Shown here: in pieces, positions 11,739 to 27,093 of the stretch
Layout: each line of letters opens with the position of its first letter
How positions within the stretch are numbered: position 1 is the stretch's first letter
From: Muribaculaceae bacterium
GTDB lineage: Bacteria; Bacteroidota; Bacteroidia; Bacteroidales; Muribaculaceae
Length of the DNA: 35,685 bases
NCBI GenBank assembly: GCA_017451225.1
Contig: JAFSPZ010000035.1
Span: 1 to 35,685, forward strand
Direction of reading: 5' to 3'
Notes under the pieces: model-generated
What the model saw: only the letters and a program-made list of their open reading frames with translations
The model's database searches: none
What the model was told of the DNA's origin: nothing
Program-made: the position numbers and the translations under genes

Positions 11739-13151
11739 ATGTTATTGAAGAAATATATCAAGCGCATCAAGGATGCGCACAACTGGATTAAAAGAAACCG
11801 CCAGCTTCTCATGCTCCTGCTGGCGATAGCGATAATGCTCATTCTGGGCGGATGTTACATGGATGGCCATAGCGCCCTACTATCTATTGTGATAGGCGGA
11901 GTGGCTGGAGGCAAACATGTGGTTGACGAACCACTCACCACCGACCTCTCGCGAGAGACATCGCCCGACTTGCTGCTCAACGAGATAGACCAGCAGATAG
12001 TGAAAGTGCGCCCCATGGCGACACCTATCGACCAACTATCACGATGTGCGGGCTCCAAACATGCTGGAAGCATGGTTGTCGATTTTTACAATGTGGACAC
12101 CAAGCCTACAATGACAGTGACCACACAAGCCTATGATGAACCCACAGCACAGACTGTTACCGACGACAGCGTTAAAGCCACCATCACAACTGCCAAGAAT
12201 GAGATGTTTGACGTGTCGGATACCATACTTGTGCAAGGAGTATATGGCTACGAGCCCGATGGCACCACACTCTCAAGCCAAGAGCTAGTGCTATATGTCA
12301 TTGCCCGTGACGACAACAATGTGCTTAAAGTGCTTGCTGTCAACGGAAAAACGATTGGCGATGTAAAAGGATGCGTGCCCAGCATTCCAGCTCAGACCAA
12401 GCTCATCAGAATGGGTCGCGCAGCAACCGAACTCGATGTAATGTCGCCACAGTTTGAAGCAATGCCCCGCAAGGCACAGCAATTTTGCCAGATCTTCAAG
12501 ATGCAGGTGGAGCAAAGCACTATGCAAAAGATTGCCAATAAGGAAGTTGAGTGGACGATGAACGACCAGGAAGAGGCTGCCATCTATGACATGAGGCTTG
12601 GAATGGAGAAGAGTTTTCTATTTGGTGTGAAAGGTAAAATTTGGGACAGCACCAAGAAAGAAAATGTGATGTTCACAGGAGGAATATGGCAACAAGCCGG
12701 CAAGGAGTTTGTCTATGACGATGACGGCTTCACACAAGAGTCGATTATTGACCTCATGCGAGACGCATTCACCGGCAATGCCGGCAGCAAGCGCAAAATT
12801 CTCATTGGTGGCTCAGAGCTGATTGGGTTCCTCAACAAGCTCGATTATCAGCGAGTTGTCACGTCGACCGACACTGTCACCAAGTGGGGCATCGACTTCA
12901 CCGAACTAAGGTCTAAATTCGGTGTTCTGTATGTACTTCTTAGCGAGGTGTTTGACGAGTGTGGCATGGCCGACGCAGGCATGATTATCGATCCCGAATA
13001 CTTGCAAAAGTACACGCACCAGCCTTTCAGTGCCGAGACCCTCAACCTCAAGGCCAGCGGTGTGAGGAACGTTGACGCCACAGTCCTTACCGAGACCAGC
13101 TGCCTAGTGCTGAGATACCCCAAAGCCCACATGCGCATCATCAAGGTGTGA
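11739..13151 (+). CDS. Phage major capsid-like protein with hydrophobic N-terminal anchor
   Basis: The product is 470 aa. Residues about 70-470 resemble major capsid proteins of the SU10/DUF5309 (HK97-fold) kind: SPDLLLNEIDQQIVKVRPMATPID near the start, a helix AMPRKAQQFCQIFKMQVEQS, EEAAIYDMRLGMEKSFLFG before an insertion loop, KILIGGSELIGFLNKL, and an end of the form WGIDFTELRSKFGVLYVLLSEVFDECGMADAGMIIDPEYL. Unusually, the N-terminus has a basic stretch (KKYIKRIKDAHNWIKRNRQ) and a hydrophobic segment ending in LILGGC at about residues 24-39, which reads as a membrane anchor or lipobox-like site, with a second hydrophobic patch at about 47-58. No terminase, portal, protease or tail gene is near. 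It may be a domesticated capsid or encapsulin-like shell protein, or a phage remnant. The family call rests on remembered motifs. Confidence 0.65.
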   Translation: MLLKKYIKRIKDAHNWIKRNRQLLMLLLAIAIMLILGGCYMDGHSALLSIVIGGVAGGKHVVDEPLTTDLSRETSPDLLLNEIDQQIVKVRPMATPIDQLSRCAGSKHAGSMVVDFYNVDTKPTMTVTTQAYDEPTAQTVTDDSVKATITTAKNEMFDVSDTILVQGVYGYEPDGTTLSSQELVLYVIARDDNNVLKVLAVNGKTIGDVKGCVPSIPAQTKLIRMGRAATELDVMSPQFEAMPRKAQQFCQIFKMQVEQSTMQKIANKEVEWTMNDQEEAAIYDMRLGMEKSFLFGVKGKIWDSTKKENVMFTGGIWQQAGKEFVYDDDGFTQESIIDLMRDAFTGNAGSKRKILIGGSELIGFLNKLDYQRVVTSTDTVTKWGIDFTELRSKFGVLYVLLSEVFDECGMADAGMIIDPEYLQKYTHQPFSAETLNLKASGVRNVDATVLTETSCLVLRYPKAHMRIIKV

Positions 13152-13258: not shown

Positions 13259-13367
13259 CTATCTCACAACACTAGAAAACACCATAAAAATAACCTCTTC
13301 AAAATGCAATACTTATGCTGTTTCAATCGTTTTATTAGTTAGGATAACTATACCCTTACGTTAAGTG

Positions 13368-15092
13368 ATGAGCTCGATTTTTAGACACACCGCAATAAAC
13401 GGTTGCCAGTGGCTTGTGCTGGCAATGCTCCTGTTGTGTCCGCTTCAAGGTATGTCGCAGCTCTACATCAACGGCAATCCAACGTTCAGTGACAGCACGT
13501 CCAACATCATCCTTTACAGCCTTCCACAAGAATGTTTCGGCCAAGACTTCACTGCCACAGTCCAACTAGACACGGCAACCCACTGGCGCAACATTACCGT
13601 CAATGGGCAGTCGCTCATCAATAACCCCATCACTTTTAATGACATTGCTGGCGACAAATCCTATCTAATCAGGGCGATAAGCGACCATGGAACCATTGTC
13701 AAGCGATTGCAGTTCACGTTCCTCCCCATCATCAGCATTGAGGGAAACATCGGCTATGACTACGCCGACGCTCATGTCACTCTACTTGACCCCGACGGCA
13801 ACCTCGACCAGGCAATGACAGCCCAGGTGAAATGGCGTGGTGGATATACCAACACCGAAGGACGCCACAAGCGCAACTACGGCATCAAGTTTGTGGACGA
13901 GAATGGTAACAAACAGGACCGCAAGCTGCTGGGAATGAGGCGCGACAACCACTGGAAACTCGATGCATCGCAGGTCGATCTCTCGCGGGTGCGCAACCGC
14001 GTGGCAACCGACCTGTGGCTCGACATGGCTCGTGAGCCTTATTACTTTGACCAAGCGCCCGATGCGCTAACTGCCGCACGAGGCAAGATGGTGGAAGTGT
14101 TCTGCGACGGCAAGTATATGGGCATCTACTCATTGATGGAATGCATCGACCGCAAGCAGCTTCAAATCAGAAAATATGACGAGGACACAAAGCAGATTCA
14201 CGGCATGCTGTGGAACGCGGCAAGCTGGAGCCGTGTCACCGAATTCAAGCATTATGTTGATTATGACAACAACAGTCCCTATTATGACGCCTTTGTGGTG
14301 GAATACCCCGATTTTGAAGAAGTTAGCCCAACTCACCACGAGGACTTGTATAACGCGGTGAAATTTATCGCAACTTGCAACGTCAATGCATTTAACGCCC
14401 ATGCCCATGAGTACTTAGACATGCCCGTGATAATTGATTATGCCATTTTTACCCAGTTCCTCATTTCGGTAGACAATGGTGCCAACAACATTTACTGGGC
14501 AATCTATGACCGCGAAATCGACAAGAAGCTAACGCTTGCTGCATGGGACCTGGACTGGTCGCTGGGCACCAACCGCGACGCACCCGATTTTCGTGGCGGA
14601 AAGGCCGAACCCGACTATAATTACAATTTCTCAAGCCGCGAGTTCATCTTGCTTCGTGACAACAGATGCATCTACAACCGGGACATGGTGGAGAGATACT
14701 GGCAACTAAGGGAAACTTGGCTCAGTGAGAAAAGTCTCACCGACAGGGTAAACAATATTGTGAACCAGCTTGTTGAATGTGGAGCCGTTGCACGTGAAGA
14801 AGCCAGGTGGAGCGGCGACAGCGACATTAATGGTCTGCCGCTCGACATCAAAGGCGAAAGAGACTACATCAACGACTGGATAAAGAAACGGCTCGCCCAC
14901 CTCGACCGCACCCTCATGCGTCATCCGTGTGATGTTGACAGCGATGGTATCGTGACAGCTGCCGACATCTATGCCATCAGCTCCTATATACTCGAAGGCA
15001 CAAGCCATGGCTACCAACTTGACGTTGACGGAGATGGTAACATCACCGTTACCGATTTAAATTGTGTTTATAATCACTTGTTAGGATATTAA
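13368..15092 (+). CDS. Secreted CotH-kinase-like protein with dockerin-like C-terminus (first of two)
   Basis: The ATG at 13368 is preferred over the adjoining GTG at 13365. The product is 574 aa with a signal peptide (hydrophobic GCQWLVLAMLLLCPLQGMSQ). The middle is a CotH-type atypical kinase domain: VKWRGG...HKRNYGIKF, RRDNHWKLDASQVDLSRVRNRVA, GKYMGIYSLMECIDRKQL, and the metal-binding-like WDLD at residues 393-396. Bacillus CotH phosphorylates spore-coat protein; the substrate here is unknown. The C-terminus has two Ca-binding dockerin-like repeats (DVDSDGIVTAADIYAI from residue 522, DVDGDGNITVTDLNCV from 552). A short Ig-like or adhesin-like region precedes the kinase. No cohesin gene lies nearby. 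The paralogue follows after 13 bp, surely the same operon. Confidence 0.85.
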   Translation: MSSIFRHTAINGCQWLVLAMLLLCPLQGMSQLYINGNPTFSDSTSNIILYSLPQECFGQDFTATVQLDTATHWRNITVNGQSLINNPITFNDIAGDKSYLIRAISDHGTIVKRLQFTFLPIISIEGNIGYDYADAHVTLLDPDGNLDQAMTAQVKWRGGYTNTEGRHKRNYGIKFVDENGNKQDRKLLGMRRDNHWKLDASQVDLSRVRNRVATDLWLDMAREPYYFDQAPDALTAARGKMVEVFCDGKYMGIYSLMECIDRKQLQIRKYDEDTKQIHGMLWNAASWSRVTEFKHYVDYDNNSPYYDAFVVEYPDFEEVSPTHHEDLYNAVKFIATCNVNAFNAHAHEYLDMPVIIDYAIFTQFLISVDNGANNIYWAIYDREIDKKLTLAAWDLDWSLGTNRDAPDFRGGKAEPDYNYNFSSREFILLRDNRCIYNRDMVERYWQLRETWLSEKSLTDRVNNIVNQLVECGAVAREEARWSGDSDINGLPLDIKGERDYINDWIKKRLAHLDRTLMRHPCDVDSDGIVTAADIYAISSYILEGTSHGYQLDVDGDGNITVTDLNCVYNHLLGY

Positions 15093-15105: not shown

Positions 15106-16824
15106 ATGAATAGTCGCCACTACACATCGATACTTCTATTTACAATTGCAGCTTTGCTGAATTTGACGGGATTTTGCCATGCCCAAGCGGCTGTAGTGTT
15201 TACTGTCAATGGCTGTCCTGCATTCAATGACTCGACTGCAGGCACAGTGCTTGTGTCGGTTCCACAGCAATGGTTTGGCACCAGCGTTGAGGCCACATTT
15301 GGCAATAGCGACAGTTGCATTGTGGAGAGTATCGACGGCATGCCTCTTGAAAATGACAGCACATTCATTTTCAACGATATCAGCGGCAGCAAAAGCTGGA
15401 GTGTAGCATGCAGCAACGGCAAAGTTTTCAGCCTCCAGTTCACTTTTCTGCCCATTGTGGCACTCGATGGCGACTTTGGTTACGACTATACCAACGGCTC
15501 GGTTTCTCTTGCTGAACCAGGCCAGCCTGCTAGCGAAATGATGACGGCCCGCATCAAGTGGCGAGGCGGCTCGACCAACACCCCCGAGAAGCACAAACGC
15601 AATTACAGCATAAAATTTGTGGACGAAAACGGCGAGAAACAAAACCGCAAGCTTATGGACATGCGCCGCGACAATCATTGGATTCTTGATGCCGGCCAAA
15701 TCGATATGGCACGAGTGAGAAACCGTGTAGCAACCGAATTGTGGCTTGACATGGCCCGTGAACCCTATTACTTTGACAAGGCCCCCGATGCCCTCTCGGG
15801 AGTGAGAGGCGAAGTTGTGGAACTATTCTTGGGAAACGAATACCGCGGCATCTATTCACTCACCGAGGCTATGGACCGAAAGCAGCTGCAACTTGTCAAG
15901 CACGACACCATCAACAATGTGTTCCACGGTGGATTGTGGAAGACCGACAAATTCACCGACGAAACAGGTTTCAAGTGGGCCGAAGAATATAACGACTCAC
16001 TTCCTGACTATTATGGGTTCACCACCATGTATCCCGAGATTGACGAGGTGTTTCCCACCAGCTATGAGGTGTTGTACAATGCCGTTAATGCCATGATGTG
16101 GAGCTATACCTATGAATACTTCAACAATGTTGTAGACCAATATTTCGATGTGCCCGTGGTCATTGATTACACTATTTTTTACCTTACCCTGTGTGCCAAC
16201 GACAACTCAACAAAAAACATCTATTGGCTGTGCTATGACCGGGAAGAAGACCAAAGATTGAGCATCGCAGTATGGGACCTTGATGCAACAATGGGACAAT
16301 CATGGTCGCCCATGGATTGGAGACCGCCTATTGTTGCCTATGATTTCTTCAATCAGCCATTTACATGGCCTTTCAAGATGATGTTCCACAACAAGTGCAA
16401 GTACCGCCAGCAGTTTCTTGACCGATATGACGAACTGCGAGCATCATGGCTTAGCGAGCAAAGTCTTGTAAATCGCTATGCCACAGCTATCGACCGCCTC
16501 ATTGAGTGCGGCGCAGCGACCCGCGAAGAGAACCGATGGAACGGTGACAGCGACCTCTTTGGGCACCCTCTCAACTTTGCGCAAGAGAAGCAATACATTA
16601 CCGAGTGGATTACCAACCGGTTGCCTCTACTTGACGTGTGGATGCATCACCACCTGTGCGACGTGAATTTTGACGGAGTAGTATCATCGGTCGACATCAC
16701 TATCCTTTATAATTACCTCATCAATGGCGATGACACCTATGATGAAGCTCTTGACACCGACTTTGATGGAGTCATCAGCGCAGCCGACATCACCTGCATA
16801 TATAATGAACTTTTAGGATTCTGA
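15106..16824 (+). CDS. Secreted CotH-kinase-like protein with dockerin-like C-terminus (second of two)
   Basis: The product is 572 aa, a full-length paralogue of the preceding gene, with matching blocks throughout (IKWRGGSTNTPEKHKRNY, RVRNRVATELWLDMAREPYYFD, NEYRGIYSLTEAMDRKQL, WDLD at residues 390-393). The signal peptide is at the N-terminus (ILLFTIAALLNLTGFCHAQA). Two dockerin-like Ca-binding repeats end the protein (DVNFDGVVSSVDITIL from 519, DTDFDGVISAADITCI from 550). Divergence between the copies is moderate and spread over the length, so the duplication is not recent. Both appear to keep the CotH core residues. Export and dockerin-like ends suggest attachment to a surface partner; which protein they modify is unknown. 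Confidence 0.85.
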   Translation: MNSRHYTSILLFTIAALLNLTGFCHAQAAVVFTVNGCPAFNDSTAGTVLVSVPQQWFGTSVEATFGNSDSCIVESIDGMPLENDSTFIFNDISGSKSWSVACSNGKVFSLQFTFLPIVALDGDFGYDYTNGSVSLAEPGQPASEMMTARIKWRGGSTNTPEKHKRNYSIKFVDENGEKQNRKLMDMRRDNHWILDAGQIDMARVRNRVATELWLDMAREPYYFDKAPDALSGVRGEVVELFLGNEYRGIYSLTEAMDRKQLQLVKHDTINNVFHGGLWKTDKFTDETGFKWAEEYNDSLPDYYGFTTMYPEIDEVFPTSYEVLYNAVNAMMWSYTYEYFNNVVDQYFDVPVVIDYTIFYLTLCANDNSTKNIYWLCYDREEDQRLSIAVWDLDATMGQSWSPMDWRPPIVAYDFFNQPFTWPFKMMFHNKCKYRQQFLDRYDELRASWLSEQSLVNRYATAIDRLIECGAATREENRWNGDSDLFGHPLNFAQEKQYITEWITNRLPLLDVWMHHHLCDVNFDGVVSSVDITILYNYLINGDDTYDEALDTDFDGVISAADITCIYNELLGF

Positions 16825-16936: not shown

Positions 16937-17002
16937 AGTGACGCTTTTAGAAAAAACTTTCTTAATTCTTGTTTAAATAATGTGTAAATGAATAATTTTT
17001 TG

Positions 17003-17010
17003 TAGTTTTG
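17003..17010 (+). promoter_or_regulatory. -7 box upstream of the VWA/tubulin/actin-like operon
   Basis: TAGTTTTG fits TAnnTTTG and lies 73 nt before the ATG at 17084. No clear TTTG was found at the -33 position. Confidence 0.5.
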
Positions 17011-17083
17011 CAAGTTATAAGGTGAAGTAGCATCTTATGCAACGTGACTATAATTAAAAACTTTGTTTTTAAACACATTGAGA

Positions 17084-18547
17084 ATGAACATGATAAGACG
17101 AGTATACCACATGACGGGCATTGCACTGGTGATGCTTGCCATGATAGTGATGGCCGCCTCATGCCGAGGTGGAGGGCTGGAGAAGGCTGTTAAAATGGCA
17201 TTCATCGACGGCGACACCACTCAGGCTCGCTACGACTCCATTTGCTCCCTAATCAAGAACAATCCCAAAAGCTACTCCGAATTCCTCACCGAGAACGGAG
17301 AAATCAATGTTGACGCTCTGGGCAGCTACATCAACAAGGTGGGAAGCAAGTTGCGTCCACCCATGTCGTGGAACATTAAAGGATATGGCCTTAAAGAGCT
17401 CACACTCACCATTTACTTCGAGCGCAGCGGTTCAATGATTCCCTACGACACTCCAGGAGGAGGCGGTCAGCTAAAGAAAGCCGTGAACGACCTCATCAAC
17501 TTCTTTCCCGGCAAAGACGGAGTGAATATTAACATTGTGAACGACAACATCTACCCCTATAAAGGCTCGGTTGACTCGTTCCTCCAGGACCGCAATATCT
17601 ATGGCAGCACAAGCGGTACCGGCGATGCCAGCTACACCGATTTCAAGCTTATCTTTGAGAAGATAATACAAGCACAGAAGCCCGGCAACGTGAGCGTGCT
17701 TATTACGGACCTTATCTACTCGCCAAAGAACACAGCCGACGTGAGTGTTGAGAAAATCCTCAACGAGGAGAACAGTGTAGCGACAAGCATTTTCAAGACC
17801 TATAAGGGCAAGTCGATTATCGTCAACCAGATGATGGGCGACTATAACGGACAGTATTATCCCTATAATGGCGCACCCATCACTTACAACGGCAAGCGTC
17901 CATTCTATGTGATAATCGTTGCCGACGCATCGACTATCGACCGCATGAGCGGCGACGACAAGTATGCCAAGTTCCTGCGTCCAGCCGATGTAAAGAACAG
18001 CTACCGTTTCAATCAGGCTCAAAGCGAGCTCAACTTCAAGGTAGTACCCGACTGGAAGGACAATGTGGGTAAGTTCCGCCCATCACGCAGCGAGAACAAT
18101 GTGCTTACCAACTGCGAGGGCGACCGCGAGACCGGCGTTCTGTGCTTCACCCTCGCCGCCAATCTCAAACCTCTTGCCAAAGACGACGCATTCCTGACAA
18201 ACGTGGCAAACTACGCCGTGCAGTCGCAAAGCGGCTTTGAAATTACAATTAGAGCCATCAAGCCCGAAGATATCACCAACAACAATCGTTCTTATCTGGA
18301 AGGCATGACTCACTTGATTACAGCCAAGGGAAAATTCAAAACTTCGCGCGACGAGCTGTCGATCACACTTGCCAACCAATTCCCCACATGGATTAAAGAG
18401 TCGACCACAACAAGCGACACCGACGCTAACGCAACAAACTTCTCAACCACTACATTTGGATTGGAACAGTTTTTGCAAGGTATCTACGACGCCTTCTCGG
18501 CTGGCAACGACACCTACGGGAAAATTGTAATGAAACTCGAAAACTAA
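17084..18547 (+). CDS. Lipoprotein with VWA-like domain
   Basis: The ATG at 17084 starts a lipoprotein signal (hydrophobic TGIALVMLAMIVMAASC, acyl-Cys at residue 27); the frame also has an earlier TTG, which is not needed. The product is 487 aa. From about residue 104 it resembles a von Willebrand A fold: a hydrophobic strand LTLTIYF followed by E113-R-S-G-S117 in place of the usual DxSxS metal site, then a helix with LKKAVNDLINFF, SYTDFKLIFEKII (T185) and VSVLITDLIYS (D209). The rest (about 220-487) is an alpha/beta region I do not recognise. It should sit on the periplasmic side, tethered by lipid. It is the first gene of a seven-gene unit and lies 15 bp from the next gene. Confidence 0.75.
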   Translation: MNMIRRVYHMTGIALVMLAMIVMAASCRGGGLEKAVKMAFIDGDTTQARYDSICSLIKNNPKSYSEFLTENGEINVDALGSYINKVGSKLRPPMSWNIKGYGLKELTLTIYFERSGSMIPYDTPGGGGQLKKAVNDLINFFPGKDGVNINIVNDNIYPYKGSVDSFLQDRNIYGSTSGTGDASYTDFKLIFEKIIQAQKPGNVSVLITDLIYSPKNTADVSVEKILNEENSVATSIFKTYKGKSIIVNQMMGDYNGQYYPYNGAPITYNGKRPFYVIIVADASTIDRMSGDDKYAKFLRPADVKNSYRFNQAQSELNFKVVPDWKDNVGKFRPSRSENNVLTNCEGDRETGVLCFTLAANLKPLAKDDAFLTNVANYAVQSQSGFEITIRAIKPEDITNNNRSYLEGMTHLITAKGKFKTSRDELSITLANQFPTWIKESTTTSDTDANATNFSTTTFGLEQFLQGIYDAFSAGNDTYGKIVMKLEN

Positions 18548-18562
18548 AAACAATATATCAAG

Positions 18563-19003
18563 ATGCGAGATAAAGTAATATTTTTAGTTATTGGCATCAT
18601 TATCAGCGTGTTGTTCTTTATTTTCAAGATTACACTCTATGATGCACTCTATTATTCCAACGGATTCAGCAACGACCTGGGCAACCTTGACGAGTATACC
18701 TCGGTTGCAGCCATCACCATAGCTATGGCATGGGGAGGAGCGGCTATCTACTACTATGCCATCAACTCAGTGAAATTTGACCGCTGGTATCACTGGCTGG
18801 CAACACTGGGTGTGGTGGCTGTGCTCACCCCGGTTGTAGACTATTTTGTCACTAGTTCCATTTTGGAAGGCAAGGACTACGGCAGCGCAATTGTATCGTT
18901 TGAGCTTCACAACATATTGTTTGCAGCGATTATGTTTGTCATTGCCTCGTTCTCAATGCGGTGGTGGAGCAGCAACTGCCGTCACACCCCCATCCCACAA
19001 TAA
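18563..19003 (+). CDS. Four-TM membrane protein of unknown function
   Basis: The product is 146 aa with four hydrophobic segments at about residues 4-26, 47-66, 78-97 and 112-132. The short loops include a conserved-looking YYYAINSVKFDRWYHW between segments two and three. No catalytic motif is visible. It is co-directional and closely spaced between the VWA lipoprotein (15 bp) and the tubulin-like gene (46 bp), so it is likely the inner-membrane part of the same system. Confidence 0.75.
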   Translation: MRDKVIFLVIGIIISVLFFIFKITLYDALYYSNGFSNDLGNLDEYTSVAAITIAMAWGGAAIYYYAINSVKFDRWYHWLATLGVVAVLTPVVDYFVTSSILEGKDYGSAIVSFELHNILFAAIMFVIASFSMRWWSSNCRHTPIPQ

Positions 19004-19049
19004 CTCTCACCACTAAGTTTGATAAACGTTAAACGAATAACGACAACAA

Positions 19050-20579
19050 ATGAAATTATTTGTATTTGCAATAGGAGGAACTGGCTCACGCGTGCTCAAA
19101 TCCATGATTATGATGTGCGCTGCTGGCGTGCGTCCCGTCGATGCCAACGGCGTGCCACTGAAAGATGTGGAAATCGTGCCCATCATCATCGACCCGCACA
19201 AGTCTAATGCCGACCTCAAGCGCACCGAGCGACTGCTCAGCGCCTATGGCACACTCCGTGAGAAACTATATGGCAAGAATGCTAATGCCAATGGCTTCTT
19301 TGCCACAAAGATATCGAGCCTCAAGGAAGTGGTCTCAAGCAGCCAAGTGCCACTCGACGACTCTTTCATCTTTAATCTTGCAGCTGTTGAGAACTACAAG
19401 TTCCGTGACTTCATCAGCTACAACACCATGAACGAACCAAACCAAGCTCTCACTTCATTGCTCTTTGCCGACTATCAGCTCGAGAACAAGATGAGCATCG
19501 GTTTTGTGGGCTCTCCTAACATTGGTAGTGTGGCGTTGAATGGCATCAAAGACAGCAACGAGTTCAAGGCTTTTGCCAACGTCTTTGCCGACGGCGACCG
19601 CATTTTCTTCATCAGCAGCATTTTTGGAGGCACTGGCGCAGCGGGATTCCCTATCATCGTGAAGAACATACGCCAAGCCAAGAATATCGACGCTAAAAAC
19701 AAGGCATTCTTGCAGCGAGCTCCAATAGGTGGACTCACCGTACTCCCCTATTTCACGCTCATGGAAAGTGACGACAAGAAAGACAAGCGCATTGACAACG
19801 CCGACTTCATAGTAAAGACACAAAGTGCGCTTGAATATTATAACAACACCCTTACAGGCAACGGACGCAACGCTGTGAACGCAATTTTCTATCTGGGAGA
19901 CCACGGACACAACGCCCCCTATGCCTACGATCCAGGCGACAAACGCGACCAGCACGACCCAGCTCACCTCATAGAAATGATTGGAGCGCTGGCGCCTTTC
20001 AAATTCTTGAGCTTGAGCGACAGCGAACTCACCGACCTTGCTACTGGCGAGCCATTGCCGACCAAGGCGTTTGAGTATGGCCTTGAGCGCGACACCGATT
20101 TTGTCGACTTCTCATGCTTCGGTCAAGAGACACGACAGCTCATCTATCGCAACCTAGTGAAGATGCACTTGCTGTACATATTCCTGCGCACAGGACTCAA
20201 CGGCATGATAGGACAAGGATTCACCGAGGATGCTCCCAAAATCACCCGCGAGTTCACCGGTACACAATTCTACCGCGTGCTAACGCAGCAATTCTTTGAC
20301 GGATACATCGAGTGGCTCACCGAGCTGCTTCACAACCGTCGTCATGTAACTCTCTTCAATGAGGGTGAAATGGATATGAACAAAGCCATCCACAAAGTGC
20401 TTACCAAGAAAGGTTTCTTTGGCAGCAAAAAAGTGGACAACGATGTTTTCAAAGCCGAAATGAACAAGTTGAGCCGCGACAACAACAGCTATGGCAGCAA
20501 TCCTGAGCTCAAGCTCATGGACCTGTTCTACAACGCAGCCGACAAAATCATCACCGACCGCTATGATAATATCAACTAA
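19050..20579 (+). CDS. Tubulin/FtsZ-like nucleotide-binding protein
   Basis: The product is 509 aa, with no signal peptide, so cytoplasmic. The N-terminus has strand plus Gly loop FAIGGTGSRVLKSM (residues 6-19). A strand ending in an acidic residue follows (EIVPIIIDPHKSNADL, D48). The key feature is FISSIFGGTGAAGFPIIVKNIR, with GGTGAAG at residues 193-199, matching the tubulin signature GGGTGSG. The order of these motifs agrees with the Tubulin_2-type FtsZ-like proteins often found beside VWA genes. The C-terminal half is not recognised. Unlike FtsZ there is no dcw context. It probably binds GTP and may polymerise or act as a switch; this is inference. It sits between the 4-TM gene and the actin-like gene. 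Confidence 0.75.
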   Translation: MKLFVFAIGGTGSRVLKSMIMMCAAGVRPVDANGVPLKDVEIVPIIIDPHKSNADLKRTERLLSAYGTLREKLYGKNANANGFFATKISSLKEVVSSSQVPLDDSFIFNLAAVENYKFRDFISYNTMNEPNQALTSLLFADYQLENKMSIGFVGSPNIGSVALNGIKDSNEFKAFANVFADGDRIFFISSIFGGTGAAGFPIIVKNIRQAKNIDAKNKAFLQRAPIGGLTVLPYFTLMESDDKKDKRIDNADFIVKTQSALEYYNNTLTGNGRNAVNAIFYLGDHGHNAPYAYDPGDKRDQHDPAHLIEMIGALAPFKFLSLSDSELTDLATGEPLPTKAFEYGLERDTDFVDFSCFGQETRQLIYRNLVKMHLLYIFLRTGLNGMIGQGFTEDAPKITREFTGTQFYRVLTQQFFDGYIEWLTELLHNRRHVTLFNEGEMDMNKAIHKVLTKKGFFGSKKVDNDVFKAEMNKLSRDNNSYGSNPELKLMDLFYNAADKIITDRYDNIN

Positions 20580-20598
20580 GTGTTAAGTGGCTGCGCCA
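20577..20598. repeat. Short dispersed intergenic repeat, copy B
   Basis: TAAGTGTTAAGTGGCTGCGC here is, apart from one missing base, the reverse complement of 7233-7254. It spans the stop codon of the tubulin-like gene and the following gap. Confidence 0.5.
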
Positions 20599-20654
20599 AC
20601 TAGACAACGTGCCAACAGCAATCGATAAATGACTACTAACATCGATAAAAAACT

Positions 20655-23600
20655 ATGAGTCAAGTACTATCATATAACAACAAGACGACTAAGACGAGCG
20701 CTCAAGACTGGATTCCTGTAACGCCCTATGTTGACGACGACATCAAGCAAATCAAGGATCCAAACGGAGGTCTCTCGGAAAACCCCCGCACTGCGATTCC
20801 AAGCCCTTTTGCACAGCTCGACCTAGTGAAAAACGCCTTTGAGCACCTGGCAAGCAATGCAAGACTTGCAGGGTCGATGATGGACAAACGCCTTGTGTCG
20901 AACGCGCTCGACGTTGCACAGCTCTTCTTTGACTTCGAGAACCATAAAGACTATCTCCACATTGTGAGATGGAACCGCGAAGAGCAACTGGAACGTCTCA
21001 AGAGTGAGCCTGAGCATCGCCTCTACGGAGAGACTTTGGAACTGTTTCTTGCCAGCGACACAAAATATAATTTCAACATGCTCACCGACTGGTACATACT
21101 ATTGTGGAACAGTCAGGTGATTGGAGCGACATCGCCTTCGTCGATGACAATTGCCGTGCCTCGCGAAAGCGAACAGCCCATCACAGGCATCAAGGTTGAA
21201 CAAGGAATCTCGCTCTTTGACAGCGACACTCGCGACCTGTGGCAGCGCGACGAAGACTTTGTTTACTACATGTTCATGCTCTTCAATGCCTTCCCAACAT
21301 TGCGCACCGCAGTGAAAGGCGTGTATGACTACATGCTTAAGAATAAAGACATCATCATGCAAGAAAAGCCTGCACTATATGCTCGCTTGACACAGGTGAT
21401 TCCCAATCTCGAGGCATTGAGCTATGAGTTGGCACCACGACTGGTTGAAAAACTTGACCTGGAATTTGACCCATTTGTGGGTGATGACGAGGTGACCGTA
21501 CTGGGAGCACGACTCTATCACAAGCGTGCCCGCGACATAATGAGCTCGGCCTCCACCAGCGACTTCGTGATAGCTCCTACACGCATGGTTGATGGCAAAC
21601 TGCCACTGGTGCTTCGCAACAACTTCAACGGCAGTGTCGACCACTATATTTATATCGATAAAGAATGGGACAGCTCCACTCAAGTGTTTACTAGAGGAAT
21701 TCCCATCGACAAGCGCAAACTTCCCGACACCAGCATAATCTATCCGTTCATCACCACTGGTGATTTCCTCCAGGACACCCTGATAAGGCTTAGTGGCCCT
21801 ATCGATGACAGCCACTATTTCAATGGCAACGTCACCAGTAAGACCATGCATCAGCCCAATGGATACCTGCTGCCTCTCACCGAAGAGTTTTTCAAGTATT
21901 TCAATGCAAGTGATGTGACCAAGAAAATACATGGCCGCAACATGCTTGAGATGGAAGAATTGAATGACGGGTCGGTCAATGTCACCTTGCGAGTACCTCT
22001 CAAGAAACGTTACATAGAGCTCACACGCAACTACTACCCCATCGATGACCCATCGTGGCACTTTGACGAGAATCGTGGCACCGGACGCATCATCACCAGC
22101 GTGGTGATGTCGACTGCCATCTTCCCATTTGTGCGCACCAACTATAAAGACGACTACACAGTGCAGCTGTTCTCTATGATTGACGGTGGTGAAGCGCGGC
22201 TCAACTTCTTCAACGACGGCATGAACACCGACGGTATGAAATGCAGTGGAAAAGTGCGCACTAAGAGCTCATACACAACCACCTACTATGACCTGGAAGG
22301 GTCGTTTGACATGATGCAGGCAGTAATCAATACTCCTGCGGGAGAATTCACAGGCTACATCGTTCCGTTGTGGAAGCCGTATGTGGCAAGCAGCAAGGAG
22401 CTGATATTTGCAGTTGACTTTGGCACAACCAACAGTCATGTGGAATGGTCGGAACGAGGGCATGACGCCAAAGACCTCGAGTTCAAGCACGGAGAGCATC
22501 AAGTGCTCATTGCTTCGCTGCTCAAGCGTGGCACACTCCTCTTTGCCGACCAGTTGCAACGTGTAGAATTCCTTCCCAGCGACATTGACAATGTGTACGG
22601 ATTCCCATTGCGCAGTGCTTTGGCCCGCAATTCCATCAGCACAGGAGGCCACAAGCTCTTTGGCGACATCAACATACCATTCCTCTATGAGCGCCAGTAC
22701 TTTGATGGCTATGACATTACCACCAACCTCAAGTGGATGGGCGACATAACCCTCTCACGCGAGTTCCTGCGCGAGCTTGTATTGCTCATCAAGGCAAAAG
22801 TGCTGCTTGAGAACGGAGACTTGAACCGCACTAGTATTGTATACTTCTTCCCTGTGAGCATGGGAGGCAGCGACCGTCGCAAACTTGACGACACCTGGAA
22901 CGAACTGTATCACACCTACTTTGGCGATGACACAAGCAACCTCCACGCCTATCCCGAGAGTATTGCTCCAGCCTATTTCTACAAGGGCGACGACGTGAGC
23001 GGCGGCAGCTTTGTCTCAATCGACATTGGTGGCGGAACAACCGACACCGTGATATATCAGCCTACAGCCAACCGTCTTGATACCGAGCCCGTGGCAATCT
23101 CGTCGTTCCGCTTTGCCGGTGACGCAATATTTGGCGACGCTTTCACCGAGCGCGATGCCGACAACAATCCTCTCATACGTCACTACGGAGAGTATTTCAA
23201 GCGACTCATATCCAAGAACGGTGACATAGGCTACCTCAACAGCATCCTCCAAGATGTGCTCAAGCGCAAACGCTCTCAAGACGTTAACGCGTTCCTCTTC
23301 TCAATCGAGAATGTTGAGCAACTGCGAGAGCTGCGAGAGGTGGACCGCAACATATACAGCTACAACACGCTGCTGCGCAACGACGCTCAGCGCAAGCTCA
23401 TATTCATGTACTTCTATGCCGCCATCATCTACTACATAGCACAGTCGATGAAGGCCCGCAACTACGAGATGCCCAAGCAAATCTACTTCAGTGGCACTGG
23501 ATCAAAGATTTTGAACATCCTGGGCAGCAAGGACCAAGTGATAGAGTTCACCCAACTCATCCTCGAGCGCGTCTTCGATAAGAAGTACACCGAGCGGTTC

Positions 23601-24086
23601 TCCATCAAGATAGAGCAGAAGAGTCCCAAGCAGATTACCTGCCGCGGCGGCATTAAGCTCGAGAGCCTGCGCATGGACGGCAACGTCGATGTACAACGTC
23701 TCACACCTCGCAATGTCAACTCGATGAAGTATTGTTACTCGATGCTCGACGAGAAACCGCTCACAATCAAGTCGGTTTATGAGATTGAAGTTAGAGACAA
23801 ACTCATTGAGCAAGTATCCCGTTTCAACGAGTTCTTCATTGGTCTGTGCGACAATGTCACCAAAGACGAGTTTGGCATCGACAACAAGGTGTTCAAGATT
23901 TTCGTCAGCGTTCTGAGCGACGACATAGGCAACTACCTCACAGCAGGTATAGGCAACTACCTCAAGGGACGCTATGAAGGCGACGAAGCGATTGAAGACG
24001 TTCCGTTCTTCTATCCTATCATTGGAATCATCAGGCACAACCTTCTCAAGAATTTGTGCAACGAGGTGATTTCACGCACTGTTTAA
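20655..24086 (+). CDS. Large protein with actin/Hsp70-type ATPase half
   Basis: The product is 1143 aa, cytoplasmic, with no signal peptide or membrane segment. Residues about 580-1080 hold the actin/Hsp70 ATPase signatures in order: phosphate-1 loop IFAVDFGTTNSHVEW (D588), phosphate-2 loop VSIDIGGGTTDTVIY (D790), and adenosine loop YFSGTGSKILNIL (from F945). Residues 1-580 have no motif I recognise and look like a folded alpha/beta region. Size and layout recall the large actin-like protein SrfB, which also occurs in multi-gene units, but I cannot confirm orthology. It follows the tubulin-like gene by 75 bp. The pairing suggests an ATP-driven partner of the GTP-binding protein. Confidence 0.75.
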   Translation: MSQVLSYNNKTTKTSAQDWIPVTPYVDDDIKQIKDPNGGLSENPRTAIPSPFAQLDLVKNAFEHLASNARLAGSMMDKRLVSNALDVAQLFFDFENHKDYLHIVRWNREEQLERLKSEPEHRLYGETLELFLASDTKYNFNMLTDWYILLWNSQVIGATSPSSMTIAVPRESEQPITGIKVEQGISLFDSDTRDLWQRDEDFVYYMFMLFNAFPTLRTAVKGVYDYMLKNKDIIMQEKPALYARLTQVIPNLEALSYELAPRLVEKLDLEFDPFVGDDEVTVLGARLYHKRARDIMSSASTSDFVIAPTRMVDGKLPLVLRNNFNGSVDHYIYIDKEWDSSTQVFTRGIPIDKRKLPDTSIIYPFITTGDFLQDTLIRLSGPIDDSHYFNGNVTSKTMHQPNGYLLPLTEEFFKYFNASDVTKKIHGRNMLEMEELNDGSVNVTLRVPLKKRYIELTRNYYPIDDPSWHFDENRGTGRIITSVVMSTAIFPFVRTNYKDDYTVQLFSMIDGGEARLNFFNDGMNTDGMKCSGKVRTKSSYTTTYYDLEGSFDMMQAVINTPAGEFTGYIVPLWKPYVASSKELIFAVDFGTTNSHVEWSERGHDAKDLEFKHGEHQVLIASLLKRGTLLFADQLQRVEFLPSDIDNVYGFPLRSALARNSISTGGHKLFGDINIPFLYERQYFDGYDITTNLKWMGDITLSREFLRELVLLIKAKVLLENGDLNRTSIVYFFPVSMGGSDRRKLDDTWNELYHTYFGDDTSNLHAYPESIAPAYFYKGDDVSGGSFVSIDIGGGTTDTVIYQPTANRLDTEPVAISSFRFAGDAIFGDAFTERDADNNPLIRHYGEYFKRLISKNGDIGYLNSILQDVLKRKRSQDVNAFLFSIENVEQLRELREVDRNIYSYNTLLRNDAQRKLIFMYFYAAIIYYIAQSMKARNYEMPKQIYFSGTGSKILNILGSKDQVIEFTQLILERVFDKKYTERFSIKIEQKSPKQITCRGGIKLESLRMDGNVDVQRLTPRNVNSMKYCYSMLDEKPLTIKSVYEIEVRDKLIEQVSRFNEFFIGLCDNVTKDEFGIDNKVFKIFVSVLSDDIGNYLTAGIGNYLKGRYEGDEAIEDVPFFYPIIGIIRHNLLKNLCNEVISRTV

Positions 24087-24139
24087 CAACTTTGAATTAT
24101 AAAAAACATAATAATAACAAACAAAATCTTTCAAACGAA

Positions 24140-25429
24140 ATGAAAAAAATTCTGTTAACACTAGTGTGCATCATGGCAGCCATGAGCACCATGGGACTAA
24201 GCGCCCAGGACAACGCCAAGAACCTTAACCCAGGTCAGTGGAAACATGGACTTGCTATTGGAGCACAATGGATCGCAAGAGACCTTGGATTTGCTCAAGC
24301 CGAGGACGTGGTAATTTCCCGCACCAACGAGAACTACACACTCGACGACCTACAGAAGATGTATGGCAGTCGCGACAAGTGGATGGGCTTCTATAACAAG
24401 CTCAAATCACACGAGAATGAGAGCGGCGACATTGACAAACTGTTATCAACCATCACTGCCGAGTATGACAAAGGAGCTGTTATTAAAAACGGCGTTAAAA
24501 AAGATGTGGAGAAATACAACGCCAGCCACACAGGCGACGAGGTGGGAGCTACTACCGCTGCCGAGGCCAATGGCAATGAAGCCACAACCATCACCAATGC
24601 CAACGACTCTACCGAGTCGAAAGCTGGAGATAGCGAAGAGAACAAGCAAGATGAAAAGGGTTCACACGGTGGACACGGCTTCCTCTACCTGCTCTCATTA
24701 CTGGGTCTTGCAGCAGGTGTGATTGGTACTTTCCTTGCCATGCAGGCACGCAAAGAGAGTCAAGCTATCATGAGTGACGTGAATGGTGACATCAACAACA
24801 TGCAGAAGCAAATTGACAAGCTTCGCGCTGCAATTAAGGGTGAGCATCCCGTTGTTCTTCACAACAAGAATGCCAAGCACGACAACAAGCTCAACGAGAG
24901 TGAAGGTCTAGCACAGACCAAGAAGATAGAATTTGACAACAATCCTTCTAAAAAGCAAGACAACAAGAAGCAGGAGCCCAAGAAAGAGGAGCCTAAGAAA
25001 GAAGTGAAGAAAGAAGAGCCCAGAAAGGACATGAAGAAAGAGGAACCAAAGAAAGAGGAGAAGAAAGAAGAGCCTAAGAAAGAGGAACCAAAAGCCACTG
25101 TTCTGGGCGAACCTCGCATCCTTTTCATGGCCAAGCCTGACGAAGACGACAATTTCTCTCGTTCTTCTTCGCAATATGAGCCAGGAAACTCTATCTTCGA
25201 GCTCACCACTATGGACGGCAAGAGTGGCTCATTCACTGTAATCAACAAGAGCGATGCCCACAAGCTCGCGCTGCTCATGCCTGGTGACACCCTCACTCGC
25301 GCATGCTCGGGCAACAACATCCAGTCAAGCGCAGGCAAGTCACGCATCATCACCGACCGTGCAGGCCGTGCTCAGCTCGAAAACGGCAAGTGGCACATTG
25401 TTGTGAAAGCCATCGTTCACTACGAGTAA
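24140..25429 (+). CDS. Exported single-pass membrane protein with Lys/Glu/Pro-rich tail
   Basis: The ATG at 24140 begins a signal peptide (MKKILLTLVCIMAAMSTMGLSAQ), so the earlier in-frame start at 24056 is rejected. The product is 429 aa. Residues 24-175 would be periplasmic, ending in a Ser/Thr/Asn-rich linker. A membrane segment lies at about 180-201 (FLYLLSLLGLAAGVIGTFLAM), followed by positive residues, so the rest should be cytoplasmic. A short coiled coil (NNMQKQIDKLRAAI) and a low-complexity stretch of KKEEPK-type repeats (about 276-318) lead to a C-terminal globular domain (about 322-429). It seems built to connect the envelope with the cytoplasmic tubulin- and actin-like proteins. 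Family unknown. Confidence 0.75.
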   Translation: MKKILLTLVCIMAAMSTMGLSAQDNAKNLNPGQWKHGLAIGAQWIARDLGFAQAEDVVISRTNENYTLDDLQKMYGSRDKWMGFYNKLKSHENESGDIDKLLSTITAEYDKGAVIKNGVKKDVEKYNASHTGDEVGATTAAEANGNEATTITNANDSTESKAGDSEENKQDEKGSHGGHGFLYLLSLLGLAAGVIGTFLAMQARKESQAIMSDVNGDINNMQKQIDKLRAAIKGEHPVVLHNKNAKHDNKLNESEGLAQTKKIEFDNNPSKKQDNKKQEPKKEEPKKEVKKEEPRKDMKKEEPKKEEKKEEPKKEEPKATVLGEPRILFMAKPDEDDNFSRSSSQYEPGNSIFELTTMDGKSGSFTVINKSDAHKLALLMPGDTLTRACSGNNIQSSAGKSRIITDRAGRAQLENGKWHIVVKAIVHYE

Positions 25430-25441
25430 TAGTTAGAATTG

Positions 25442-25487
25442 GCAAAGTGGGAAGTACAATGTGTAAGATTAGTACTTCCTACTTTGC
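25442..25487 (+). other. Strong intergenic hairpin inside the operon
   Basis: Arms at 25442-25457 and 25472-25487 pair over 16 bp with one G-T wobble and a 14-nt loop. No T tract follows, so it is more likely an mRNA stabiliser, processing site or attenuator than a full terminator. It ends 21 nt before the GTG start of the next gene. Confidence 0.7.
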
Positions 25488-25508
25488 TCTTAAACTTGAG
25501 ACTTAAAA

Positions 25509-26174
25509 GTGCATATTTTCTGCCCCAACTGCGGGAAACATATTGATGTATCGATTCAAGAAATCGAAAAGCTGGAAGGACGCTATGTGTGCCCTCAGTG
25601 CCTCACTGAGCTAGCCCTCGAACTCGAAACGAGCAAAAAGGACCTTCCGCTCAATGACGAGGTTGCTCCTGTTGAGAAACAAACTAAAACCGATGCCCCA
25701 CGCAATGATCAACCTTCAACATCAACACACAATAATAGCAGCAGTGACAGCCATGACAACGATGTCACAGCAAAATCCACTGCCGACAAACCCCAAGAGG
25801 CAGAAACACCACCTCAACCCAACACACATGTTGACGACGTGATTAGATACTGCAGAAAATGTGGAAGCTTCCTTAAAGAAGGTGCCAACTTTTGCCCTAA
25901 ATGTGGTAATTTTGTGAGAGTACGACCTCCAAAATACCAGTCAAAGAAGACAACAGCACCTCCACCCTACACTAAAAATTCACAGCAAAACAATCAAGGC
26001 AAAACCACTCCTTCCAAACAGCCCATGGCAGCAAAAAAAACAAAAGCTTCGTCCCGCCCCTCAAATGGCGGCAGCAAATCTCAATTCAGCATCCTCAGCA
26101 TTGGCGGATGCCTTGCCTTCACACTCATAGTCGTGGCCCTGTTCTTCATTGTATATATCTTAACAGGCAACTGA
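25509..26174 (+). CDS. Tail-anchored protein with two zinc ribbons
   Basis: The start is GTG at 25509: an in-frame stop at 25497 blocks anything earlier, and the first zinc ligands follow at once (residues 5 and 8). The product is 221 aa. Zinc ribbon 1 is at residues 5-35 (CPNC...CPQC). After a Thr/Ser/Asn/Pro-rich linker, zinc ribbon 2 is at about 115-135 (CRKCG...CPKCG). A second basic and Ser-rich linker leads to a C-terminal membrane segment at about 193-218 (LAFTLIVVALFFIVYIL). The soluble part should be in the cytoplasm. Zinc ribbons of this type bind protein or nucleic acid. It is part of the unit by direction and spacing. Confidence 0.75.
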   Translation: MHIFCPNCGKHIDVSIQEIEKLEGRYVCPQCLTELALELETSKKDLPLNDEVAPVEKQTKTDAPRNDQPSTSTHNNSSSDSHDNDVTAKSTADKPQEAETPPQPNTHVDDVIRYCRKCGSFLKEGANFCPKCGNFVRVRPPKYQSKKTTAPPPYTKNSQQNNQGKTTPSKQPMAAKKTKASSRPSNGGSKSQFSILSIGGCLAFTLIVVALFFIVYILTGN

Positions 26175-26199
26175 TAAACAACCTTTAATCATTATCAAG

Positions 26200-26832
26200 A
26201 TGAAAATAGAATGTCCCAAGTGCGGATTAATCTCCAACCAAACCGAAGAGGAACTTGCGAAACTCAACCACATCATCACCTGCCCTAAGTGTATGTCGCC
26301 ACTTAAGATTGTTAATGGTGTAGCTTATATTCCTACCGACAAAGCTCCTATCGAAGAGCTGAAACCCTTTGTAGAACAACCGCCTCAATTCAAGGGTACA
26401 GATTATTATCAAACATATGAGAATCTTGAGAACCTTGACCCACTATACAGTTCGGCAGTAGAATATATCAAAACTTGCAATGTGATTACCCTTCCCATGC
26501 TACAGCGCTACTTCGACATAACTCCCGAGCGAGCCGAACTCCTGATGCAGCAACTTGAGGACAATAAGGTTGTGTCGCCTTTTGATGGTGTTAACCCACG
26601 CAAAATACTCATAAATCACAATACCAACATCAATTACACCACTTCTCACCAAAGGCGGTTCAGTAACGAGGCCCAATATATGTCGCCCCAGCAGCCCGAC
26701 ACGGCAACTAATAAAAAAAGCGTCCCAGAACCAGCACGCTCAAGAGGATGGTTAAGATTCCTTCCAGGCTTGGGAGTGATAATTTTCATCCTGCTCCTGT
26801 GCAAACTCATCATCAGCTATTTCGCTAAATAA
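26200..26832 (+). CDS. Zinc ribbon + FtsK-gamma-like winged helix + TM anchor
   Basis: The product is 210 aa. A zinc ribbon lies at residues 5-31 (CPKCG...CPKCM). Residues about 78-142 match the FtsK gamma DNA-binding domain closely by eye: LDPLYSSAVEYIKTCNVITL, then LQRYFDITPERAELLMQQLE and a VVSPFDG...PRKIL ending, compared with the DPLF..AV..., LQRxFRIGYNRAAxxxxQLE, GIVxP.DGxxPRxVL pattern of FtsK. A basic/polar linker and a C-terminal membrane segment (about 186-207) follow. In FtsK this domain reads KOPS DNA; here it lacks the motor, so a membrane-tethered DNA- or protein-binding role is inferred. It is the last gene of the unit. Confidence 0.75.
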   Translation: MKIECPKCGLISNQTEEELAKLNHIITCPKCMSPLKIVNGVAYIPTDKAPIEELKPFVEQPPQFKGTDYYQTYENLENLDPLYSSAVEYIKTCNVITLPMLQRYFDITPERAELLMQQLEDNKVVSPFDGVNPRKILINHNTNINYTTSHQRRFSNEAQYMSPQQPDTATNKKSVPEPARSRGWLRFLPGLGVIIFILLLCKLIISYFAK

Positions 26833-27003: not shown

Positions 27004-27019
27004 CTCCTCTCTCCACTTG

Positions 27020-27093
27020 CGGTGCGTACAGGACTCGAACCAGCGACCTCCTGCGTGACAGGCAGGCATTCTAACCAACTGAACTAACGCACC
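27020..27093 (-). tRNA. tRNA-Asp (anticodon GUC)
   Basis: A full cloverleaf reads on the minus strand: acceptor GGTGCGT/ACGCACC, D arm with AGTTGGTTAGA, anticodon loop CTGTCAC (GTC), T arm GGTTCGAGTCC, discriminator G. The CCA end is not encoded. The body agrees well with bacterial tRNA-Asp. Confidence 0.96.

Follow-up and report, generated by a model that had tools for sequence, protein, structure and literature searches.

A Tubulin-Superfamily Protein Paired with an ASKHA ATPase in the Four-Gene Core of an Accessory, Membrane-Linked Gene Cassette of Bacteroidales

Introduction

Divergent members of the tubulin/FtsZ superfamily have been described beside genes for von Willebrand factor A (VWA) proteins. 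Thus, FtsZl1 (Tubulin_2, PF13809) was reported in operons with VWA proteins, kinases, GTPases, and OmpA proteins, and the published FtsZl1 alignment includes a protein from Bacteroides caccae (Makarova and Koonin, 2010; PMC2875224). The membrane-remodeling idea for such proteins has been restated (Makarova, 2015; PMC5898192), and in a phylogeny of FtsZ and tubulin the Tubulin_2 proteins are set apart as sparse and divergent (PMC9871819, published in 2023). Here, we analyze a cassette of seven genes, g1–g7, in a stretch of 35,685 nucleotides from a Muribaculaceae bacterium (assembly GCA_017451225.1, contig JAFSPZ010000035.1; the whole stretch is called the window below). Its first four genes encode a predicted VWA-like lipoprotein (g1), a small membrane protein (g2), a protein assigned to the tubulin/FtsZ superfamily (g3), and a probable ATPase of the ASKHA (actin/MreB/Hsp70) type (g4).

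Tubulin and HSP70 also appear, as separate themes, among systems built round a GTPase and GAP1, the tubulin theme occurring in Firmicutes and Actinobacteria (Kaur, 2020; PMC7159879). As described there, these DO-GTPase/GAP1-N2 systems resemble the cassette in being membrane-proximal and in combining tubulin, VWA, and zinc ribbons, with HSP70 in other members. Scans of the seven window products with Pfam and NCBIfam, two libraries in which DO-GTPase/GAP1 models are unconfirmed, showed no match to a GTPase or to GAP1.

In FtsZ–FtsA, tubulin-fold and actin-fold NTPases meet at the membrane. The cassette differs from that pair in being accessory and patchy, and its g4 bears an N-terminal part of about 570 amino acids (aa). 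Beyond FtsZ–FtsA, bacteria are not, to our knowledge, generally known to join tubulin-fold and actin-fold proteins in one module. Searches of the open-licence PMC literature, supplements excluded, listed no description of the four-gene core, and g2 or g4 may be among the unnamed families of the 2010 supplement. The new element is the tubulin/ASKHA pairing, apparently within a membrane-linked machine that has not been described.

A Conserved Four-Gene Core

All seven genes lie on the forward strand (Table 1), and the gaps between them, from g1 through g7, measure 15, 46, 75, 53, 79, and 25 bp. The open reading frame (ORF) coordinates agree with the initial annotation, which had described seven co-directional genes with gaps of 15 to 79 bp. 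The motifs it had pointed out (GGTGAAG in g3; DFGTTN, DIGGGTTD, and SGTGSK in g4) are all present in the translations, as is a lipobox in g1, and the 19-residue hydropathy scan by which membrane segments were called found such segments in g2, g5, g6, and g7, in line with the four other products that it had credited with membrane segments. Features that it had not remarked on are a zinc ribbon in g6 and perhaps another in g7, the FtsK gamma domain of g7, and a glutamate in place of an aspartate in the MIDAS-like motif of g1 (see below).

Table 1. Features of the cassette and its flanks (window coordinates).
Feature	Coordinates	Strand	Basis or description
ORF, 127 aa	11322–11705		next to the capsid homolog
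SU10 phage major capsid protein homolog	11739–13151	+	Pfam 4.5e-50; isolated
CotH kinase + dockerin protein	13365–15092	+	tandem with the next
CotH kinase + dockerin protein	15106–16824	+	directly upstream of the cassette
Upstream block with candidate promoter	16958–17040	+	left edge of the cassette; common to near relatives while most other upstream sequence differs
Candidate promoter TAGTTTTG	17003–17010	+	upstream of g1
Inverted repeat TTAAAAAC-TTT-GTTTTTAA	17054–17072	.	seen in the sequence, between the promoter and the g1 start
g1, predicted VWA lipoprotein, 487 aa, core	17084–18547	+	MIDAS-like motifs, lipobox, hhalign
g2, small membrane protein, 146 aa, core	18563–19003	+	three hydrophobic segments (hydropathy), synteny
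g3, tubulin/FtsZ-superfamily protein, 509 aa, core	19050–20579	+	Pfam Tubulin across members, T1 and G-box
g4, ASKHA (actin/MreB/Hsp70-type) ATPase, 1143 aa, core	20655–24086	+	profile matches, motifs
g5, signal-like segment, one transmembrane segment, charged linker, C-terminal domain; accessory	24140–25429	+	hydropathy; ATG at 24140 the most likely start
g6, zinc-ribbon protein with C-terminal transmembrane segment; accessory	25509–26174	+	Pfam Zn_Ribbon_1 2.6e-8, above cut-off; GTG start
g7, possible zinc ribbon, FtsK gamma domain, C-terminal transmembrane segment; clade-specific accessory	26200–26832	+	FtsK_gamma 4.9e-13
tRNA-Asp	27019–27093	opposite	downstream of the cassette

The evolutionary unit is g1-g2-g3-g4 and not all seven genes. 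The initial annotation had treated the seven as one unit; of these, g1–g4 are conserved widely, while g5 is common in Bacteroidales and g6 and g7 are clade-specific. Two main collections of loci were compared. A family search covered 99 genomes, 26 of which matched g3; three with an ordinary FtsZ alone (L042–L044) were dropped, leaving 26 loci in 23 genomes. The models used to scan these loci include their own members, and hence the E-values of that scan are not independent. The second collection, called the named set below, comprises 80 Bacteroidales loci, the best 80 of 562 confirmed relatives.

Within the family loci, g4 follows g3 in 25 of 26, and g1 and g2 are each recognized by sequence in 17. 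In seven further loci (L035–L041) a larger protein and a small transmembrane protein occupy the g1 and g2 slots; a small protein with two to four hydrophobic segments fills the g2 slot in 13 further loci. In the named set, a scripted survey recognized g4 in 79 of 80 loci, g2 in 78, and g1 in 77; 76 loci had all four core genes. Counting L060, which the script overlooked owing to an over-extended ORF, raises g1 to 78 and the core to 77. Median gaps across the core are 36, 59, and 39 bp, and two loci of this set, L073 and L112, lie at contig edges. Gene neighborhoods in which these genes are routinely apart, which the initial annotation had said would count against it, were not what the relatives showed: g3 is followed by g4 at no more than 3 kb in 79 of the 80 named loci (within 200 bp in 74), and the two genes share the same genomes in a wider sample of the phylum. 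In that sample of Bacteroidota, g3 was found in 13 of 395 genomes, one copy (G488) having seven internal stops, and g4 in 12 of 390, namely, the same 12 that carry an intact g3. Eleven of these g4 copies are full-length and that of G189 ends at the contig end. The other matches of the g4 search in this sample were weak (1e-9 or worse) and consisted of short frames of MreB or FtsA size over the ATPase motif. The stop-ridden g3 of G488 (L159, 9050–10288) and a truncated g4 in family locus L026 are decaying copies.

The core extends beyond these collections. Hidden Markov models built from the family recognized g4 in 11, g1 in 10, and g2 in nine of 12 other Bacteroidota loci. On plasmids of the cyanobacteria Gloeothece and Picosynechococcus, g3 (5e-62 and 6e-59, respectively), g4 (6e-39 and 4e-43), and g1 (3e-12 and 1e-8) were matched, g2 being placed by position alone and the Gloeothece g1 lying on the opposite strand. 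The Picosynechococcus strain, sp. PCC 8807, is cultured, and its plasmid copy opens the core to experiment; strains PCC 7003 and 73109 were found to carry g3. The core order was also seen on all four IMG/VR loci found, with g1 placed by position in one of them. Across 32 hand-picked loci, gene-tree distances correlate among the four core genes with r of 0.79 to 0.97, the g3–g4 pair reaching 0.967.

Predicted Folds of the Core Proteins

Both profile matches and motifs support the placement of g3 in the tubulin/FtsZ superfamily. Pfam Tubulin is matched at E ≤0.05 by 24 of 25 g3 members (best 5.6e-6) and Tubulin_2 by 17 of 25 (best 4.7e-6); taken by itself, the window protein stays under the Pfam cut-off with either model (E 0.0056 and 0.015, respectively). 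In the PDB, the g3 profile weakly matched tubulin/FtsZ entries, the best being 3zid (E 0.035, then 0.015). The tubulin and actin/Hsp70 folds proposed in the initial annotation have gained profile support for g3 and g4 alike, the PDB match of g3 being the weak part. Residues G193, G194, T195, and G196 are invariant in 25 of 25 alignment rows, the window row included, and the T1 glycine loop and the G-box GGTG(S/T/A) are kept in all 32 loci chosen for diversity. The phosphate-1, phosphate-2, and adenosine motifs of g4 occur in order, with their key residues likewise kept in 32 of 32 loci. Being invariant or kept to this extent, the nucleotide motifs of g3 and g4 are not chance occurrences. A borderline hydrophobic stretch of g3 (185–203) overlaps the G-box strand, and the invariant E309 falls, as judged by eye, in an H7-like stretch. 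Identification of g3 with the FtsZ of cell division was rejected; an ordinary FtsZ, judged by sequence and by the sizes of neighboring genes, is what the three dropped family genomes (L042–L044) contained.

Among the relatives compared, FtsZl1 is the closest to g3 by profile, and a distant kinship of the two fits the data. In both cases, a divergent tubulin-superfamily protein whose T6–H7 elements are hard to identify stands beside VWA and membrane proteins, as far as FtsZl1 is described in the text of Makarova and Koonin (2010), and the VWA protein is encoded in the same operon, its counterpart here being g1 (VWA-like by motifs and a modest profile probability). One FtsZl1 protein also matches the broad g3 model (E 0.0012). 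On the other hand, g3 has no long C-terminal half, whereas five FtsZl1 proteins of the phylum, compared by length alone, measure 982–1208 aa. The window g3 scores 15 bits against a Tubulin_2 cut-off of 27, which is reached by one of the four g3-type proteins listed (28.4, with its neighbors). No homolog of g1, g2, or g4 was found at E ≤1 in the 7.8–19 kb around the five FtsZl1 loci, two of them partial. Unlike FtsZl1 as described there, g3 is paired with an ASKHA protein; the main text of Makarova and Koonin (2010) contains no occurrence of hsp70, zinc, ftsk, or srf. With Tubulin_2 score, length, and neighbors all differing, assignment of g3 as a plain FtsZl1 member was rejected, and the FtsZ-like/VWA precedent invoked by the initial annotation turns out to concern a different tubulin subfamily.

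Similarly, g4 is supported as an ASKHA ATPase close to MreB and Hsp70. The broad g4 profile matched MreB (8e-7), Hsp70 (7e-6), and actin (2e-5) in the PDB, MreB proteins being its best solved relatives, and a narrower profile had already found Hsp70 and MreB. The three nucleotide-binding motifs are like those of MreB, Hsp70, and actin, and the similarity is confined to the C-terminal part of g4: among 109 PDB matches, all 60 shown lie beyond position 570. The first ~570 residues gave no convincing match; one relative has an Otubain match at 0.025. Pfam matches among 25 g4 members are to Ppx-GppA (5), FtsA (4), MutL (4), MreB (3), and EutA (2). In Pfam, the window g4 matches SrfB under the cut-off (E 0.19), and SrfB of srfABC (PF07520) resembles g4 as a large protein with an ASKHA-type motif. 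This identity was nevertheless rejected, since the match amounts to 10.1 bits over 40 residues against a cut-off of 27.1, and none of the 25 members matches SrfB at E 0.05. Further ASKHA/HSP70-like paralogs lie in or beside the core operon in L024 (10496–14167 and 14393–17122, both on the forward strand), L030 (977–4387), and L034 (1043–4237); the extra HSP70-like protein upstream in L030 and L034 scores under the cut-off.

The g1 product is predicted to be a VWA-like lipoprotein. A single N-terminal hydrophobic segment is followed by an AASC lipobox. All 32 loci that were aligned retain [DE]xS and [TS]D motifs resembling a metal ion-dependent adhesion site (MIDAS), and L033, L034, L146, and L147 have the canonical DxSGSM. 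Aligned by hhalign with nine VWA proteins of related genomes, g1 scores 41.6 with a probability of 48%, the maximum of 20 column-shuffled controls being 16.3. Pfam VWA_2 is matched by one of 16 g1 members, and the window protein itself has no Pfam match. For g2, Pfam gave DUF418 (E 0.0029, under the cut-off); the gene sits between the VWA and tubulin-like genes, which makes its product a concrete candidate for a membrane bridge. NCBIfam and PADLOC gave nothing convincing for the four core products.

A trivial explanation, i.e., that this is an ordinary operon of unrelated hypothetical proteins whose folds have been over-read, can draw on the Pfam scores that the four core proteins obtain as single sequences, all under curated cut-offs, and on profile–profile probabilities of about one half. 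Nevertheless, it appears very improbable. Co-occurrence and synteny in two phyla contradict the notion of unrelated genes, and over-reading of folds is hard to reconcile with the breadth of the Tubulin matches (24 of 25 members) or with PDB matches of g4 to ASKHA proteins down to 8e-7.

A Predicted Envelope-Spanning Assembly

We consider the chances evenly divided that the cassette is accessory, moves laterally, and encodes an NTPase assembly that spans the envelope and acts at the membrane in the manner of FtsZ–FtsA. In such an assembly, g3 and g4 would, like FtsZ and FtsA, meet at the inner membrane on its cytoplasmic side, and the g4 ATPase would serve as an adaptor or switch; cooperation of the two at the membrane is favored by their co-inheritance. 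No FtsA-like C-terminal amphipathic helix was found in g4, whose hydrophobic moments over 18-residue windows place those near the C-terminus (last 40 residues) 313th or lower, and its attachment to the membrane would therefore go via g2 or another partner. The assembly would be linked across the membrane by g2, and by g5 where present, to the g1 lipoprotein, which may use its MIDAS-like site to bind a ligand in the periplasm or envelope. Partners that differ between lineages, such as zinc-ribbon transmembrane proteins, TerD, proteases, and peptidoglycan-binding proteins, could act as outputs or local adaptors. The most likely use, we infer, is conditional envelope remodeling or an envelope-stress response and not routine division.

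A bolder reading, which we put forward tentatively, is that of a second, division-independent machine, in which tubulin-fold and actin-fold NTPases make up a single cytoskeletal complex on the membrane, connected across the inner membrane with a lipoprotein that binds a ligand. Such a machine would be mobile, common to Bacteroidota and Cyanobacteriota, and have its output modules swapped by lineage.

A number of observations weigh against an envelope-spanning assembly of this kind. No NxDxxD-like T7 catalytic loop was identified in the g3 alignment, and hence GTP hydrolysis and polymerization by g3 are uncertain and its dynamics may differ from those of FtsZ. The hhalign score of g3 with FtsZl1 (47.3; shuffled maximum 23.6) carries a modest probability of 53%, and that with FtsZ (25.0, probability 2%) barely exceeds the shuffled maximum of 23.5. 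In the clade of the window, the first aspartate of the MIDAS-like motif of g1 is replaced by glutamate (of the 78 g1 found in the named set, 77 read ERSGSM and one EQSGSM). Profile–profile probabilities between g1 and VWA proteins reach just 48–54%, profile searches with g1 gave no PDB match, and the g1 model matches the g1-slot proteins of L035–L041 weakly (E 0.003 to 1.2). As for linkage, five of 79 g3–g4 gaps in the named set exceed 200 bp, L091 of the same set has no g4, and G488, which falls outside the 390 genomes, combines its degraded g3 with absence of g4 from the 19.5 kb examined. Finally, while none of 1000 permutations per gene pair reached the observed tree correlation, shared ancestry explains part of it.

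The similarity of g4 to Hsp70 and the occurrence of protease partners also allow a different picture, that of a membrane chaperone or a secretion/assembly device in which the ASKHA protein is a chaperone-like ATPase, the VWA lipoprotein a co-chaperone for a surface component, and the tubulin-like protein a scaffold. VWA proteins are described as co-chaperones of MoxR ATPases in the account of Kaur (2020; PMC7159879). Against it, the families shown for the scanned proteins include no Hsp70 substrate-binding domain, GrpE, or DnaJ, the best solved relatives of g4 are MreB proteins, and no constant secreted substrate gene was seen; we regard this picture as unlikely.

Mobility and Variable Neighbors

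Like an accessory cassette, this group of genes occupies differing sites in near relatives. When its flanks, taken as 5 kb on the upstream and 4 kb on the downstream side, were compared with nine near relatives from the named set (g3 92–95% identical), they proved mostly unrelated, and most of these relatives share just the short upstream block from about position 16,958, with the candidate promoter followed by the inverted repeat. L050 additionally has a 421-bp downstream match at 67%, and both L050 and L051 share the CotH-like genes in inverted orientation. Some near relatives offer little downstream sequence for this comparison, and L046 none. In L017, whose g3 is nearly identical to that of the window, the flanks are common to both. 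The right edge of the cassette could not be mapped, as the last 232 bp of g7 gave no blastn match. The family search also met three genomes with two copies of the cassette each. A phage origin is unsupported, as none of 50,697 phage records gave a match; phages or proviruses may nevertheless carry the core, since it lies on four IMG/VR contigs.

Mobility of this sort also suits an anti-phage or inter-bacterial conflict system, in which the core would sense envelope perturbation through a VWA ligand, the two NTPases would act as a switch, and the variable downstream genes would be the effectors. The patchy presence (13 of 395 genomes) fits this role as well as it fits an envelope role, a further point against the latter. 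The differing genomic sites and the double copies, the location on plasmids and IMG/VR contigs, the relaxase gene upstream in L036, and the variable neighbors, including TerD and proteases, point the same way, and such roles have been proposed for related tubulin/HSP70 systems in the account of Kaur (2020; PMC7159879). On the other side, PADLOC models identify no core product, and their PD-T4-6 matches in g5 (1.4e-4) and g6 (0.012) fall, by eye, in charged low-complexity stretches; no nuclease or pore-forming effector was recognized among the scanned downstream neighbors, and the four-gene core is fixed. We consider a conflict role possible, though rather doubtful. It is the main rival of envelope remodeling or stress response, which is our first choice, and the data hardly separate the two.

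Whichever role applies, the genes around the core vary between lineages. The accessory g5, probably a membrane bridge, is present in 72 of the 80 named loci, and its C-terminal region is matched in some other Bacteroidota loci. A zinc-ribbon gene of the g6/g7 type occurs somewhere in 46 of the 80. In g7, the FtsK gamma domain scores 49 bits against a cut-off of 30.6, and the zinc ribbon is under the Pfam cut-off; to find this winged-helix domain in a tail-anchored protein that is small and zinc-ribbon-like seems unusual. Gamma-domain genes were found in 19 of 124 scanned loci (the window's own included), after the core in 16 and upstream of it in L083, L092, and L098.

Downstream of the core in L036, genes for two TerD proteins and a CW_7 protein, over the Pfam cut-offs, lie at 277–2249 on the reverse strand, and this arrangement, together with the relaxase gene, suggests that the core is connected with mobility and with stress systems of the Ter type. 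Gene sizes in L039 and L040 resemble those of L036, and CW_7 is also found downstream in L038. Other downstream neighbors include trypsin-like proteases and an aspartyl protease (over cut-offs), as well as TPR and SH3 proteins (under cut-offs). In L022 (9265–11860), about 2.6 kb carrying a 599-aa ORF is inserted between g3 and g4; no Rfam family matches this insertion.

Upstream Region and Flanks

Upstream of g1, TAGTTTTG is a candidate promoter of the Bacteroidales type. Because the forward strand of the window contains TAnnTTTG 22 times, the weight of this candidate rests on its conservation in 11 aligned loci. The inverted repeat TTAAAAAC-TTT-GTTTTTAA, possibly a regulatory site, is kept across the same 11 aligned rows, although L048 and L051 differ slightly and the L050 row ends early.

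A tRNA-Asp gene lies downstream of the window cassette. Adjacency to a tRNA as an integration site was rejected as a general feature: a tRNA occurs anywhere in the locus in five of the 50 loci given. Sequence similar to the tandem CotH genes upstream of the window cassette adjoins the cassette in L050 and L051 as well, in the opposite orientation. Farther upstream, no additional phage genes were recognized around the SU10-type capsid homolog among ten flank proteins scanned, the 127-aa ORF lying outside the scan. Three Bacteroides phages match this homolog at 40–42%. A search of the genus found homologs in 39 of 41 genomes, mostly in a single copy, and the window protein is a candidate domesticated capsid.

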